From positions 1-33,120 of the forward strand of contig CAIZIQ010000199.1 in the NCBI GenBank assembly GCA_903933015.1: DNA of 33,120 nucleotides, given 5' to 3'. The position numbers and the translations under genes are program-made. Every line of letters begins with the position of its first letter. The stretch's first letter is position 1. Positions 2,577-30,103 of this stretch are shown one piece after another. The stretch comes from an uncultured Spartobacteria bacterium (lineage in GTDB: Bacteria > Verrucomicrobiota > Verrucomicrobiia > Chthoniobacterales > UBA6821). Under the pieces are notes generated by a model. It did not search any database. It saw only the letters and a list, made by a program, of their open reading frames with translations, and had not been told where the DNA came from.

Positions 2577-2671
2577 AGTCTGAACAAGTGACAGGGAAGT
2601 CACGCGGAAGACTACGACAAAGTAGTAGCCCAAAGGTTGCCACAGCTTTCCTGGGAGAGAAGTGGCATCAA
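2577..2671 (+). repeat. Copy 1 of a two-hairpin dispersed intergenic element (candidate structured RNA)
   Basis: Aligned by eye with 29887-29981: shared AGTCTGAAC, GCGGAAGAC, GCCCAAAGG, CACAGCTT, AAGTG and TCAA blocks; two hairpins at the same positions in both copies. Strand is assigned arbitrarily. Confidence 0.6.
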
Positions 2672-16692: not shown

Positions 16693-16936
16693 AATACCGT
16701 CGCCCCAAGGGATCGAGCTTGCTTCTTTTGCGCCTCTGAACTTCCAAGCACTTGAAGAAGGCTTGTAAGGGATGGATTGTGTCTGGCCTAAAGCCTGCAG
16801 CCTAAACTTGCTAGCGCCTAGCTCGACAGTCTCTCCTGCGAGTCGTGCTGCCTGCTTTCCCCTATCACTTTCCTTTTCACTTCTCTCCCTGCTCCCTACA
16901 GCCTAATCGCCTTAAAACCTATCCTCCCTGGATCAC

Positions 16937-22793: not shown

Positions 22794-22881
22794 TCAAAGG
22801 TTCCGCTTGGGCCCCCCTCAGGCCTATAATCTGAAACCCTAAAGCCGAACTCCCTTTCACTTTCATTCTCACTCCATCTTT

Positions 22882-23811
22882 ATGAAAACAGCACTCCTCT
22901 TCTCCGGTCAGGGAGCCCAAGCCGTCGGCATGGGCAAGGACCTTGCCGCCAGCTACCCTGCTGCCGCTGATCTCTTCGCCAAGGCCGATGGGATTCTCGG
23001 TTACTCCCTTTCGCAGATCGCCTTCGAGGGGCCTGTCGATGAACTCACCAAGACCTCTGTTTGCCAGCCCGCGCTCTATACTCATGGGCTAGCTGCTCTG
23101 GCCGTCCTGAAGGAGAAGTTCCCTGCTCTTTCCTTTGATGCCGCCGCCGGTCTCTCTCTTGGGGAATTCACTGCCCATGCCTCAGCCGGAACCTTTGATT
23201 TCGAGACCGGACTACGATTGGTCGATCAGCGTTCCCGTTTCATGCAGGAGGCCTGCGAGGCCACCGAGGGGGGAATGGCAGCCATTATCGGGGCCGATGA
23301 GCAGGGGGTGCGTGATCTTGCAGCTGCTGCAGATGTCGATGTGGCCAATTTCAACAGCCCTGGTCAGATCGTTATCTCCGGGGAGAAGTCAAAGATCGCC
23401 CTTGCTGTCGGCATGGCCAAGGAATTCGGAGCCCGCAAAGCGGTCGAGTTGACCGTGGCAGGAGCCTTCCATTCCCGTCTCATGGAACCCGCCTACCAGC
23501 GCCTGAGCGCGGTACTTTCCGAGACTCCGATCGTCATGCCGCGGGTAACCGTCGTTGGAAATGTGGATGCCCGTCCTGCAGGATCACCCGATGCCATTCG
23601 CAAGTCACTTGCCGATCAGGTCACGGGATCGGTCTGCTGGACCGCCAGCATCGAGTACATGATCGACCACCTCGGTATCATGCGATTCCTCGAACTCGGC
23701 CCCGGCGGAATCATTGCTGGCCTCGTCGGTCGTATCCGCAAGGGCACTGAAGTCATCAGCGTCTCCGATGCCGCTTCCCTCGAGGCGGCTCTACCGACAC
23801 TTCATTCGTAG
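22882..23811 (+). CDS. fabD: Malonyl CoA-acyl carrier protein transacylase
   Basis: FSGQGAQAVGMGKDL, AAGLSLGEFTAHASAG (GxSxG), AGAFHSRLMEPA. Confidence 0.97.
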   Translation: MKTALLFSGQGAQAVGMGKDLAASYPAAADLFAKADGILGYSLSQIAFEGPVDELTKTSVCQPALYTHGLAALAVLKEKFPALSFDAAAGLSLGEFTAHASAGTFDFETGLRLVDQRSRFMQEACEATEGGMAAIIGADEQGVRDLAAAADVDVANFNSPGQIVISGEKSKIALAVGMAKEFGARKAVELTVAGAFHSRLMEPAYQRLSAVLSETPIVMPRVTVVGNVDARPAGSPDAIRKSLADQVTGSVCWTASIEYMIDHLGIMRFLELGPGGIIAGLVGRIRKGTEVISVSDAASLEAALPTLHS

Positions 23812-24106: not shown

Positions 24107-24200
24107 CCATAAAAGACGCCTACCCAGTCAGCTTTTGTGGTTAATAATCAATCTAGTTTTTCCTATCTTCCTGTTTTCCAGATTAAGTTCTCAGTTTTTG

Positions 24201-25244: not shown

Positions 25245-25615
25245 GATGATAGGTGTTGGAGGGATTCAATCGTGGCCGATCAGGGAAGATCTGCAATGAC
25301 AATTGATGGTTTCTTCATGGAGCAATCCAGATCACTTTTCATCCCTGTTTTTCACCTCAATTTATTCCGGATTGAACATGATTCTGGGGTCGCCAAATCT
25401 GTTCTACAGAGCTAAAAATATCATCTTGTCCTGCAAAGGAGAAAAGCAGACCCAAATCGATAGCGATTCGGCCCAAATTTGAAACATATCCAGGATCTCT
25501 TCAACCGGAGCAGCCAAGTGCGGCAGCATGCCCACCCCAAGTTCCCCCCTTGTACCTTTAACTCGCTCCCCCCTTGCAGCTTAGCCCCCATATCTAAACT
25601 CCTCTTTTCCCAACT

Positions 25616-26497: not shown

Positions 26498-26527
26498 CCT
26501 TCGGTTCCTTACCTAAAGCCTTAGCCC

Positions 26528-27132: not shown

Positions 27133-27396
27133 ATGAATGTTTCCCTAACCACAGAAATGGAGCAGTGGGTGCAGCAGAAAGTAGGAAGTGGGCTCTATAC
27201 CTCTGCTAGCGAGGTAGTTAGAGAGGCTATTCGGGCTCTCCATGCCAAGGAAACGCGCAATAGCACCAAGCTCGCCAATTTGCGTGATGCACTTCAGCAG
27301 GGCATCGATACTGCTGATCAGGGTGACCTCTTGGAGTGGGATGAAACCGTTGCCATGGAAATCAAGCAGACTGGTCGGAAGCGTCGCCAAGCATGA
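27133..27396 (+). CDS. ParD/CopG-like type II antitoxin
   Basis: MNVSLTTEMEQWVQQKVGSGLYTSASEVVREAIRALHAKE is a ParD-family RHH pattern; overlaps the downstream toxin ORF by ATGA; start at 27133 rather than 27109. Confidence 0.9.
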   Translation: MNVSLTTEMEQWVQQKVGSGLYTSASEVVREAIRALHAKETRNSTKLANLRDALQQGIDTADQGDLLEWDETVAMEIKQTGRKRRQA

Positions 27397-27689
27397 GGCT
27401 CCTTCTATCGGGGAGAGCCAAACAGGATCTCATCGAGATCTGGGAGTATATCGCTTCGCATGATGAAGAGGCAGCCGATCAATACATCGATCACTTGAGG
27501 CGACGCGCCATGGAGTTGATAACTCACCCTGAGCTTGGTCGTAGCCGAGACGACATCCATCACGGTATTCGCAGTTTGCTTTCCAGAAACCACCTTCTTT
27601 TTTACCGGATCCGAGCCAATGAGATTCAGATCCTAAGAATCCTCCATGGCAGCATGGATCTTCCAAACCAAGACTTTCCTACAGCCTAA
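27393..27689 (+). CDS. RelE/ParE-family toxin
   Basis: MRLLLSGRAKQDLIEIWEYIASHDEEAADQYIDHLRRRAMELITHPELGRSRDDIHHGIRSLLSRNHLLFYRI is a ParE-family pattern. Confidence 0.92.
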   Translation: MRLLLSGRAKQDLIEIWEYIASHDEEAADQYIDHLRRRAMELITHPELGRSRDDIHHGIRSLLSRNHLLFYRIRANEIQILRILHGSMDLPNQDFPTA

Positions 27690-27728
27690 TAGCCTAAAGC
27701 CTAAACCCCTCTCACTTTCACTTTCCCC
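27679..27728 (+). repeat. CCTAAA-type plus CACTTTC-type degenerate intergenic repeat preceding rfbB
   Basis: cctacagcctaatagcctaaagcctaaacccctctcactttcactttcccc directly before the ATG. Confidence 0.6.
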
Positions 27729-28793: not shown

Positions 28794-28926
28794 GGTCTAG
28801 GTTCTGGGTTGTTAGGAATTAGGGTTTAATAAAACAGCTTCATTAGATAGCTGAAGCCTACTAATGACATACAGCCTAGAAAACTAATACCTAATCTCTC
28901 CGGTTCCTCTCCCCTATAGCCTAATC

Positions 28927-28945
28927 TCCTAACACCTAAACCCCT
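28927..28945 (+). repeat. 19-nt exact repeat, copy 1 (TCCTAACACCTAAACCCCT)
   Basis: Identical to 30079-30097; ends 6 nt before the GTG at 28952. Confidence 0.85.
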
Positions 28946-28951
28946 CCCTTC

Positions 28952-29719
28952 GTGTCTCCCGACATTGCCTACTGCTGGCGGCTTTTTACCAAGCTGACCT
29001 GGACAAATTTTAAGCTACGCTACTATGGCAGCTATCTGGGCTACTTCTGGTCGCTCCTGAAGCCACTTGGACTCTTTGGAGTTCTTTACATCGTCTTCAC
29101 CGTCGTGATGAAGCAGTCTACGCCTCACTATGGCGTCTTCCTGCTCTTGGGCATCATCCTCTGGGATTTTTTTGTTTCGGGTACCATGGCGGGTATGAAC
29201 GGTTTTATCGGTAACTATCAGATGATCCGCAAAGTCTACTTGCCTCGTATCATCTTAGTGGCAGCAGCGGTTTCCAGTGCCTTCATAGGACTCTTCTTCA
29301 ATCTCATTATTTTCGTCGTTTTCGCACTGCTGGATGGCGTGCGCTTTACTCCGAAAGCCCTCTGGTTTTTGCCCTTGATAGCGGCTTTCTACCTACTGGT
29401 TCTGGGCATTGGGTTCATTCTCAGTATTGTTGTGGTTAAGGTGCGAGACACCCTCAGCCTTTGGGAAGTCGTTACCCAGTTGGGATTCTGGGCTACTCCG
29501 GTCATGTATCCCATGAAGATGGTTCCGGAAAAGTGGCGATTCTTCCTGTTTCTTAACCCGATGAGCGGAATCATTGATTATTCACGCTATCTTCTCGTGG
29601 GCATCGGTGGCCTCACTAAGATCGGTTACTGCTACGTGCTTGGAGTTAGTTTGATTTTCTTTATTCTCGGAGTCCTTGTCTTCAAGACCAAGGAAGGAGA
29701 GATGGTTGAGGACCTCTAA
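28952..29719 (+). CDS. ABC-2 type polysaccharide/O-antigen export permease (Wzm-like)
   Basis: LTWTNFKLRYYGSYLGYFWSLLKPLGLFGVLYIVFTVVMK, six hydrophobic segments, FLFLNPMSGIIDYSRYLLVG; GTG start. Confidence 0.93.
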   Translation: MSPDIAYCWRLFTKLTWTNFKLRYYGSYLGYFWSLLKPLGLFGVLYIVFTVVMKQSTPHYGVFLLLGIILWDFFVSGTMAGMNGFIGNYQMIRKVYLPRIILVAAAVSSAFIGLFFNLIIFVVFALLDGVRFTPKALWFLPLIAAFYLLVLGIGFILSIVVVKVRDTLSLWEVVTQLGFWATPVMYPMKMVPEKWRFFLFLNPMSGIIDYSRYLLVGIGGLTKIGYCYVLGVSLIFFILGVLVFKTKEGEMVEDL

Positions 29720-29737
29720 GCACGCAGTGCTTAGAGG
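29713..29737. other. 11-bp perfect hairpin overlapping the permease stop codon
   Basis: CCTCTAAGCAC gca GTGCTTAGAGG; the TAA stop is 29717-29719; no T-tract follows. Confidence 0.8.
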
Positions 29738-29757
29738 AGGTATTTAGGAGTTAGGCT

Positions 29758-30092
29758 TTTAGGCATTAGGAATTTATACTTTAGGTAATAAAATTTGCGA
29801 CCACACGAAACTCAAAGCCTTTGAATTGGTTGGCAGAATAGCTTCGGAAGCATGTCCCACCTTAAAATCTGATAAATAATTTATGGAGTCTGAACCAAGA
29901 TTTTTGGGAAAAAGCGCGGAAGACAACGATGGAATCGTTGCCCAAAGGGCGGCACAGCTTGTGGGCAACAAGTGCCGTCAAAAAGTGCTTGGATCGCTCA
30001 TTCGCTCACAACGACCTAAAGCCTAATTGCCTACAGTCTAAACAGCTTGCTCCATTGCGCCCCTCCTACAGTCTAAATTCCTAACACCTAAA
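29758..30092. repeat. Inverted-repeat-bounded spacer between the permease and ATPase genes
   Basis: 29758-29776 TTTAGGCATTAGGAATTTA and 30074-30092 TAAATTCCTAACACCTAAA are inverted copies, 17/19 matching. Confidence 0.7.
29887..29981 (+). repeat. Copy 2 of the two-hairpin dispersed intergenic element (candidate structured RNA)
   Basis: See 2577-2671; hairpin 1 CAACGA tggaa TCGTTG, hairpin 2 CGGCA-CAG-CTTGT gggca ACAAG-TGCCG. Strand is assigned arbitrarily. Confidence 0.6.
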
Positions 30093-30097
30093 CCCCT
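30079..30097 (+). repeat. 19-nt exact repeat, copy 2 (TCCTAACACCTAAACCCCT)
   Basis: Identical to 28927-28945; ends 6 nt before the GTG at 30104. Confidence 0.85.
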
Positions 30098-30103
30098 AAC
30101 CAA

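Follow-up and report, generated by a model that had tools for sequence, protein, structure and literature searches.

Short CCTAA-type units recur in many spacers of the DNA analyzed here, with reverse-oriented TTAGG units directly after stop codons. An earlier note described them as a telomere-like repeat family for which no described bacterial counterpart was known. The question raised by this locus is what these units are and what gives them their orientation. The window, i.e., the whole stretch of 33,120 nucleotides under study, is the entire contig G000:C199 of a MAG of 2.33 Mb in 335 contigs. Relatives of its wzm gene were found in MAGs of freshwater Spartobacteria/Chthoniobacterales, within the phylum Verrucomicrobiota. 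The dense part of the window is an O-antigen operon at 25.6-32 kb, which encodes a nucleotidyl transferase, a dTDP-sugar epimerase, a ParD/ParE pair, a dTDP-glucose dehydratase-like protein, Wzm, and Wzt.

CCTAA and TTAGG arrays in the window

In total, the window holds 26 CCTAA and 14 TTAGG words. Seven CCTAA pairs and four TTAGG pairs lie within 12 nt of each other, compared to means of 0.08 and 0.06 in 100 dinucleotide shuffles (maxima of 2 and 1, respectively), and the clustering reported in the earlier note is thus real. The units are intergenic, degenerate, and oriented relative to genes, and their spacing within arrays is mostly 7 to 8 nt. Five of the sites can be considered good arrays (Table 1). 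Among the remaining ones, the region from 25578 to 25600 is a weak site because it contains no CCTAA at all, and the sites at 22821-22846 and 26509-26527 carry one exact CCTAA each. The stretch from 16779 to 16920 contains three CCTAA words in addition to CCTAC and CCTAT units. As it is located in a convergent spacer, next to where the minus-strand gene aroB ends, it also represents TTAGG after a stop.

Table 1. Positions of array arms and structured element copies in the window
Feature	Position	Strand	Details
Structured element, second copy in the window	2581..2671	+	Covariance model R1, 45.0 bits, E 6.5e-9; also recovered as repeat D6
Degenerate pyrimidine words, right edge of convergent spacer (aroB 3' end, minus strand)	16779..16936	+	CCTAA at 16787, 16801, 16902
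Degenerate pyrimidine-word stretch 5' of gene at 22882	22821..22850	+	Member of repeat family D1, 72%; one CCTAA
Short pyrimidine-word stretch, 30-nt rfbA-rfbC spacer	26509..26527	+	Single CCTAA at 26512
Pyrimidine-word array	27678..27706	+	Good array; gives parE-like gene its stop codon and extends to rfbB-like start; CCTACAGCCTAATAGCCTAAAGCCTAAA
Purine-word (TTAGG) arm, left arm of rfbB-wzm spacer	28795..28831	+	Good array; directly 3' of rfbB-like stop; TTAGG at 28812, 28819, TAGG at 28798; inverted match to 28913-28943, score 15, duplex -25.7 kcal/mol
Pyrimidine-word (CCTAA) arm, right arm of rfbB-wzm spacer	28885..28945	+	Good array; 5' of wzm start; CCTAA at 28890, 28920, 28928, 28935
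Purine-word (TTAGG) arm, left arm of wzm-wzt spacer	29740..29787	+	Good array; 3' of wzm stop; TTAGG at 29744, 29751, 29759, 29766, 29781; 36-nt inverted match to 30065-30100, 83%, score 24, -33.2 kcal/mol
Structured element, ~88 nt, four hairpins, in loop between arms of wzm-wzt spacer	29892..29981	+	Covariance model R1, 60.2 bits, E 6.6e-13
Pyrimidine-word (CCTAA/TCTAA) arms, right arm of wzm-wzt spacer	30010..30100	+	Good array; 5' of wzt start; CCTAA at 30015, 30022, 30080, 30087, 30095

A ParD/ParE toxin-antitoxin pair lies between the rfbC- and rfbB-like genes (27133-27690), and the parE stop codon falls within a CCTAATAG array, where the reading frame closes as ...PTA followed by two stops. 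The pyrimidine word TTCCTGTTTTCCTGAGTTCCAGATTAA, which is the reverse complement of the GGAACTCAGG class, occurs at 2812-2841 and 24160-24189. The latter copy lies at the right-hand end of a convergent spacer, where the polarity rule described below would place it.

Three known types of repeat were considered and rejected. Telomere repeats do not apply, as the units reside in internal spacers rather than at replicon ends and their word class is variable. A CRISPR was rejected since there are no identical repeats with regular spacers, and a plain microsatellite on account of unit spacing and word diversity; on both of these points the earlier note was right.

The orientation of the words was evaluated in the source genome (G000) and two congeners, G004 and G014. 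The counts per kb derive from an earlier, smaller sample of 291, 392, and 394 kb, respectively, and genes were called by a simple purpose-made caller, with approximate starts. Within 50 nt before starts, CCTAA occurred at 2.82, 1.41, and 1.38 per kb in G000, G004, and G014, versus 0.40, 0.35, and 0.26 per kb for TTAGG. Within 50 nt after stops, TTAGG prevailed (1.75, 2.40, and 1.82 per kb versus 1.31, 0.67, and 0.64 per kb for CCTAA). CCTAA was found at 0.14 to 0.26 per kb in coding DNA compared to 0.6 to 2.2 per kb in codirectional spacers. The order proposed earlier, with TTAGG following the upstream stop and CCTAA preceding the next start, is observed exactly in the rfbB-wzm and wzm-wzt spacers. 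The earlier note had named two outcomes that would speak against it, i.e., a lack of enrichment over shuffled sequence or of orientation bias. Enrichment was found, the bias was present in all three genomes, and the interpretation as a whole is partly supported.

The strict triplet CCTAA-x-CCTAA-x-CCTAA was confined to this contig in its own genome (5 matches; control, 2) and was also detected in other members of the genus (23 versus 7 for the control in G004). CCTAA in G000 is thus mainly a word of the O-antigen operon; different words are used in the remaining spacers.

Word classes, polarity, and matched spacer edges

An unbiased k-mer enrichment at gene edges yielded CTGTTAGG, AGGCTGAAG, CGCAGAGG, GTTAAAA, and GGATGAA, and inspection of spacer edges added AACCTGAAACC, GGTGATAGGG, GTCGAG, and GGAACTCAGG. 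Overall, at least eight word classes of 6 to 10 nt were distinguished, TTAGG being one of them: CTGTTAGG, CGCAGAGG, GTTAAAA, GGATGAA, AACCTGAA, GGTGATAGG, GTCGAG, and GGAACTCAGG. Each array consists of several degenerate units of this length. The resemblance to telomeres is therefore a coincidence of one word class, as the same positions carry CGCAGAG, GTTAAAA, GGATGAA, AACCTGAA, and others. CCTAA/TTAGG is one word class of genome-wide short-word direct-repeat arrays at gene edges.

Regardless of the word, the purine-rich strand runs from the gene into the spacer, and the sequence is pyrimidine-rich going into the next gene. Codirectional spacers frequently had arrays before starts, whereas divergent ones did not, and the word cover of divergent leaders was at background level. 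Upstream regions were C-rich (0.30 C, 0.21 G). A Shine-Dalgarno-like motif was present in few genes, i.e., in 15 to 22% of genes within the sampled classes and in 2 of the 36 genes with an arm.

The left edge of each spacer of at least 80 nt was aligned to the reverse complement of its right edge, and a score of 14 or more was taken as an inverted match. For this purpose, genes were called over 291 kb (G000), 792 kb (G004), and 785 kb (G014). Inverted matches were obtained for 7 of 95, 16 of 321, and 25 of 278 spacers (5 to 9%) in G000, G004, and G014, compared to 0.4, 0.7, and 1.1% of mismatched spacers; these 48 pairs were listed before MITE-like sequence was excluded. With MITE-like sequence excluded, spacers that hold a gene 3' end matched in 9.7, 5.9, and 10.1% of cases, versus 0.46, 0.91, and 1.8% for type-matched controls composed of mismatched spacers (P = 2e-7, 4e-8, and 6e-10), and these match rates persisted when the window was omitted. 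Matched ends were found in only 2 of 158 divergent spacers versus 43 of 533 others (P = 0.0014). The purine-rich arm was the 5' arm in 45 of 46 pairs. The median distances were 8 nt from the stop to the left arm and 7 nt from the right arm to the next gene, with a loop of 78 nt (up to 450 nt) and a duplex energy of -30.5 kcal/mol. Matching decreased with distance, from 5 to 9% within the same spacer to 2 to 6% across one gene (10/327; 2/327 in the other direction), with a background of about 1%. The MITE-like inverted ends, GGAAGCGCTGATT(T/C)AATC...GATTTAATCAGCGCTTCC, are a separate repeat family, with members at G014 C3 16045-16340 and G014 C1 269625-269951.

The main rival to the explanation that we favor below is that the arms pair in read-through RNA, forming a functional hairpin as long as the spacer that acts as a 3' stabilizer, attenuator, or insulator, like REP/BIME. 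The arms lie flush with both genes, their duplexes have a median energy of -30.5 kcal/mol, and matched ends, like arrays before starts, occur where a transcript can cross the spacer. An RNA-level role would also fit both the sharing of a class and the near absence from divergent spacers, since both arms are present solely in transcripts that traverse the entire spacer. However, in codirectional spacers GU-compatible mismatches showed no excess over AC-type ones (55:59), and the match between the two arms of a spacer did not exceed that to other arms of their class (mean rank, 0.46). Together, this indicates class sharing without fine pairing, and fine selection for RNA hairpins is not supported. 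The loops are long, and, in a comparison of 54 orthologous spacer pairs, an inverted repeat was present in 3 on one side and 5 on the other but in none on both, these being small numbers. We consider such a hairpin possible but rather unlikely.

Orthologous spacers often swapped words: TTAGG in G014 C4 corresponded to CGCAGAG in G004 C13, and GTTAAAA in G014 C4 to AACCTGAA in G004 C13. Other arrays persisted. The start of the array 3' of wzm (TTTAGGAGTTAG; 29740..29787 in the window) was kept in G011 (L116) and G004 (L117) despite a different next gene, and CCTAA 5' of wzm was kept in G004 despite a different upstream gene. In G004 and G011, the genes that follow wzm are, as read from the sequence, one resembling AbrB/VapB and a further small gene.

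Beyond the genus, samples from other families of the order displayed the same geometry with other words, such as ATGACGA (G026) and CACGGAG (G030). Elsewhere in the phylum, exactly the same words had a patchy distribution among distant genomes. CGCAGAGRCGCAGAG was present in 15 of 115 genomes, with 342 copies in G041 (control, 7), and CCTAACAGYCTAA reached 29 copies in one distant genome (G136) and occurred nearly nowhere else; the same array pair was present at two loci of the latter genome, L202 and L203. For gaps of the type GCGCAGAG...CTCTGCGC, the expected order was found at 11 loci and the reverse order at 4 distinct loci, 3 of them in G041 and G119. This polarity is in the right direction and less clean than within the genus. 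AATCC triplets, the reversed control pattern, were abundant in other families (G026, G030, G029, and G024), which is consistent with the presence of GGATT-type words (AATGACGGATTCCGAATG) in G026.

A structured element within the arrays

The loop of the wzm-wzt spacer harbors a structured element with the layout GAACCAAG-hairpin-GCGGAAGAC-hairpin-CCC..GGG-GGCAC-hairpin-GTGCCRTCAA. Employing a covariance model built from three copies, 41 copies were found in 2.2 Mb. The element occurred in 15 of 16 congeneric genomes at 4 to 135 copies per genome; elsewhere in the order it was weaker and sporadic. Among 29 copies, 93.7% of the cells paired, compared to about 42% in slid controls, 22 of 27 pairs varied on both sides, and covariation was 0.546 versus 0.157 after shuffling. 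Fitting the alignment to the model biases these counts, but the distance from the controls is large. The element was without a match in Rfam 15 at gathering thresholds, and the copy at 29892 had none at an E value of 5 or less. One RsmY match in Rfam, obtained in L199, was at chance level. Within the searches made, this is a new, undescribed high-copy element. With up to 135 copies per genome and a place outside Rfam, it is, independently of the arrays, a candidate new class of repeat RNA in bacteria or of mobile element.

Additional copies were located at L199:1413-1500 and L199:1609-1691, and some copies are arranged in tandem with a 3-nt overlap. Structural subtypes end in GTTCA instead of GTCAA or carry GCGGAGAA in place of GCGGAAGAC (L107:16170-16257, L153:6415-6503, and L168:13982-14069). 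Larger clusters of hairpins with GGGA loops surround some copies, e.g., in L199.

Arrays are interrupted by the element, which lies on the purine strand; where words flank it on two sides, these mostly belong to one class. At least 25% of the 5' flank was covered by purine words on the element's own strand in 36.7% of copies, versus a background of 3.0% and 0% for the antisense strand, using a word list that was compiled after the flanks were seen. When the element is skipped, several arrays continue seamlessly, as in GGGTTGAA-CCAAG...GTCAA-GGGTTGAA (L093) and GTCGAGAGGTCGAA-...-TGTCGAGAGC (L165). Judged from these junctions, the element looks like an insertion into pre-existing arrays.

This insertion-like behavior would also suit the view that the arrays or their paired ends are themselves mobile DNA, akin to REP/RAYT elements or MITEs, given that they are dispersed, intergenic, and often arranged as inverted pairs, and that REPs are known in the phylum (PMC3733652). 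However, no match to the Y1 transposase (PF01797) was obtained in the array-rich genomes G000 and G014. Moreover, the arms are tandem degenerate words, neither palindromes nor constant TIRs, and both word class and loop vary from spacer to spacer. Mobile DNA of this type appears improbable as the source of the arrays.

Proposed origin and related systems

The best explanation, which we favor tentatively, is that the arrays are born by slippage, spread locally, receive their polarity from transcription, and provide insertion sites for the structured element. The arrays would arise by strand slippage and spread by copying between nearby arrays, within the same spacer first and then across one gene. 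They would be tolerated only where the two edges are not both occupied by 5' control regions, i.e., where the spacer holds a 3' end. Transcription leaving the gene, producing purine-rich untranslated RNA, and pyrimidine-rich leaders free of Shine-Dalgarno motifs may together set the polarity. Such arrays could then act as landing sites for the element, and the matched inverted ends would be mainly a by-product of the local spread of one class. Speaking against it, the wzm arrays were retained with their gene in two congeners, which a purely neutral model with fast turnover does not require.

The pyrimidine arrays could alternatively be leader elements for Shine-Dalgarno-free translation through binding of the S1/Csp/Csr type, a role proposed for TAACTGA repeats (PMC4679880). 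The peak of CCTAA within 50 nt of starts and the rarity of Shine-Dalgarno-like motifs in genes with an arm are in line with it. However, divergent leaders, which need translation equally, show only background word cover, and the equal purine arrays after stops are left unexplained, so that we assign this role a low probability. In a further proposal, somewhat less probable still, element and arrays jointly make up a single RNA-based mobile system. As RNA (or single-stranded DNA), the element would recognize purine words and insert or be copied there, and a templated activity, telomerase- or retroelement-like, would lay down and swap the words. If true, this would explain the limited vocabulary common to distant lineages. 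That the G-rich strand serves to form G-quadruplexes is very unlikely: the geometry is the same as that of the G4-forming GGGAATC repeats (PMC4692102), but most words, including TTAGG, CTGTTAGG, GTTAAAA, CGCAGAGG, GGATGAA, and AACCTGAA, are without G3 tracts. Composition or chance, which the C-rich upstream regions might suggest, is refuted by the shuffles, the mismatched-spacer controls, and the polarity of the arms.

In light of these findings, what was a curiosity about a single word, GGGAATC in Xanthomonas, becomes a rule of general scope: spacers that hold a gene 3' end are bordered by purine-rich words going out and pyrimidine-rich words coming in. The identity of the edge word is exchangeable and its polarity is not. 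Rather than which protein reads such a word, the question becomes which process writes these words along the edges of genes. Any lineage represented by many strains can be used to test the rule.

No description of a multi-word repeat system of this sort was found in the open-licence literature. The STRR heptanucleotide repeats of heterocystous cyanobacteria are, as here, short degenerate tandem words in spacers. REP/BIME/REPIN sequences resemble the arrays in being intergenic, near gene 3' ends, and in inverted configuration, but their units are palindromic, tagged GTAG/CGTC, and RAYT-linked, none of which applies here (PMC3733652). The TAACTGA direct repeats near starts in Beggiatoaceae, Cyanobacteria, and Bacteroidetes (MacGregor 2015; PMC4679880) are likewise intergenic, 7 nt long, close to starts, and patchy over distant taxa; unlike the present arrays, they comprise a single word, are mostly placed toward starts, and follow no inverted pair rule.

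Contrary to the earlier note, a described bacterial family does share the gene-edge geometry, namely, the GGGNATC repeats of Xanthomonas and Nostoc (PMC4692102). Rehm et al. (2015) reported GGGAATC (Xanthomonas) and GGGGA(C/T)T (Nostoc) as intergenic, degenerate 7-nt direct repeats whose G-rich strand is the sense strand in the 50 bp following stops and the antisense strand in the 50 bp preceding starts. They are rare between divergent genes and form 70 to 75 convergent inverted pairs per Xanthomonas genome, and their authors leave the function open (PMC4692102). The arrays described here agree in unit length, mainly intergenic location, strand orientation of the purine-rich words, depletion between divergent genes, and convergent inverted pairs. 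They differ in that the known repeats have one G4-forming consensus word per genome, with four units preferred, whereas at least eight classes, most of them not G4-capable, occur here. In addition, the class is matched within a spacer and swapped between orthologous spacers, and a structured element is embedded. Sharing the geometry but lacking a single G4-forming word, the arrays thus represent a many-word variant of a described kind.
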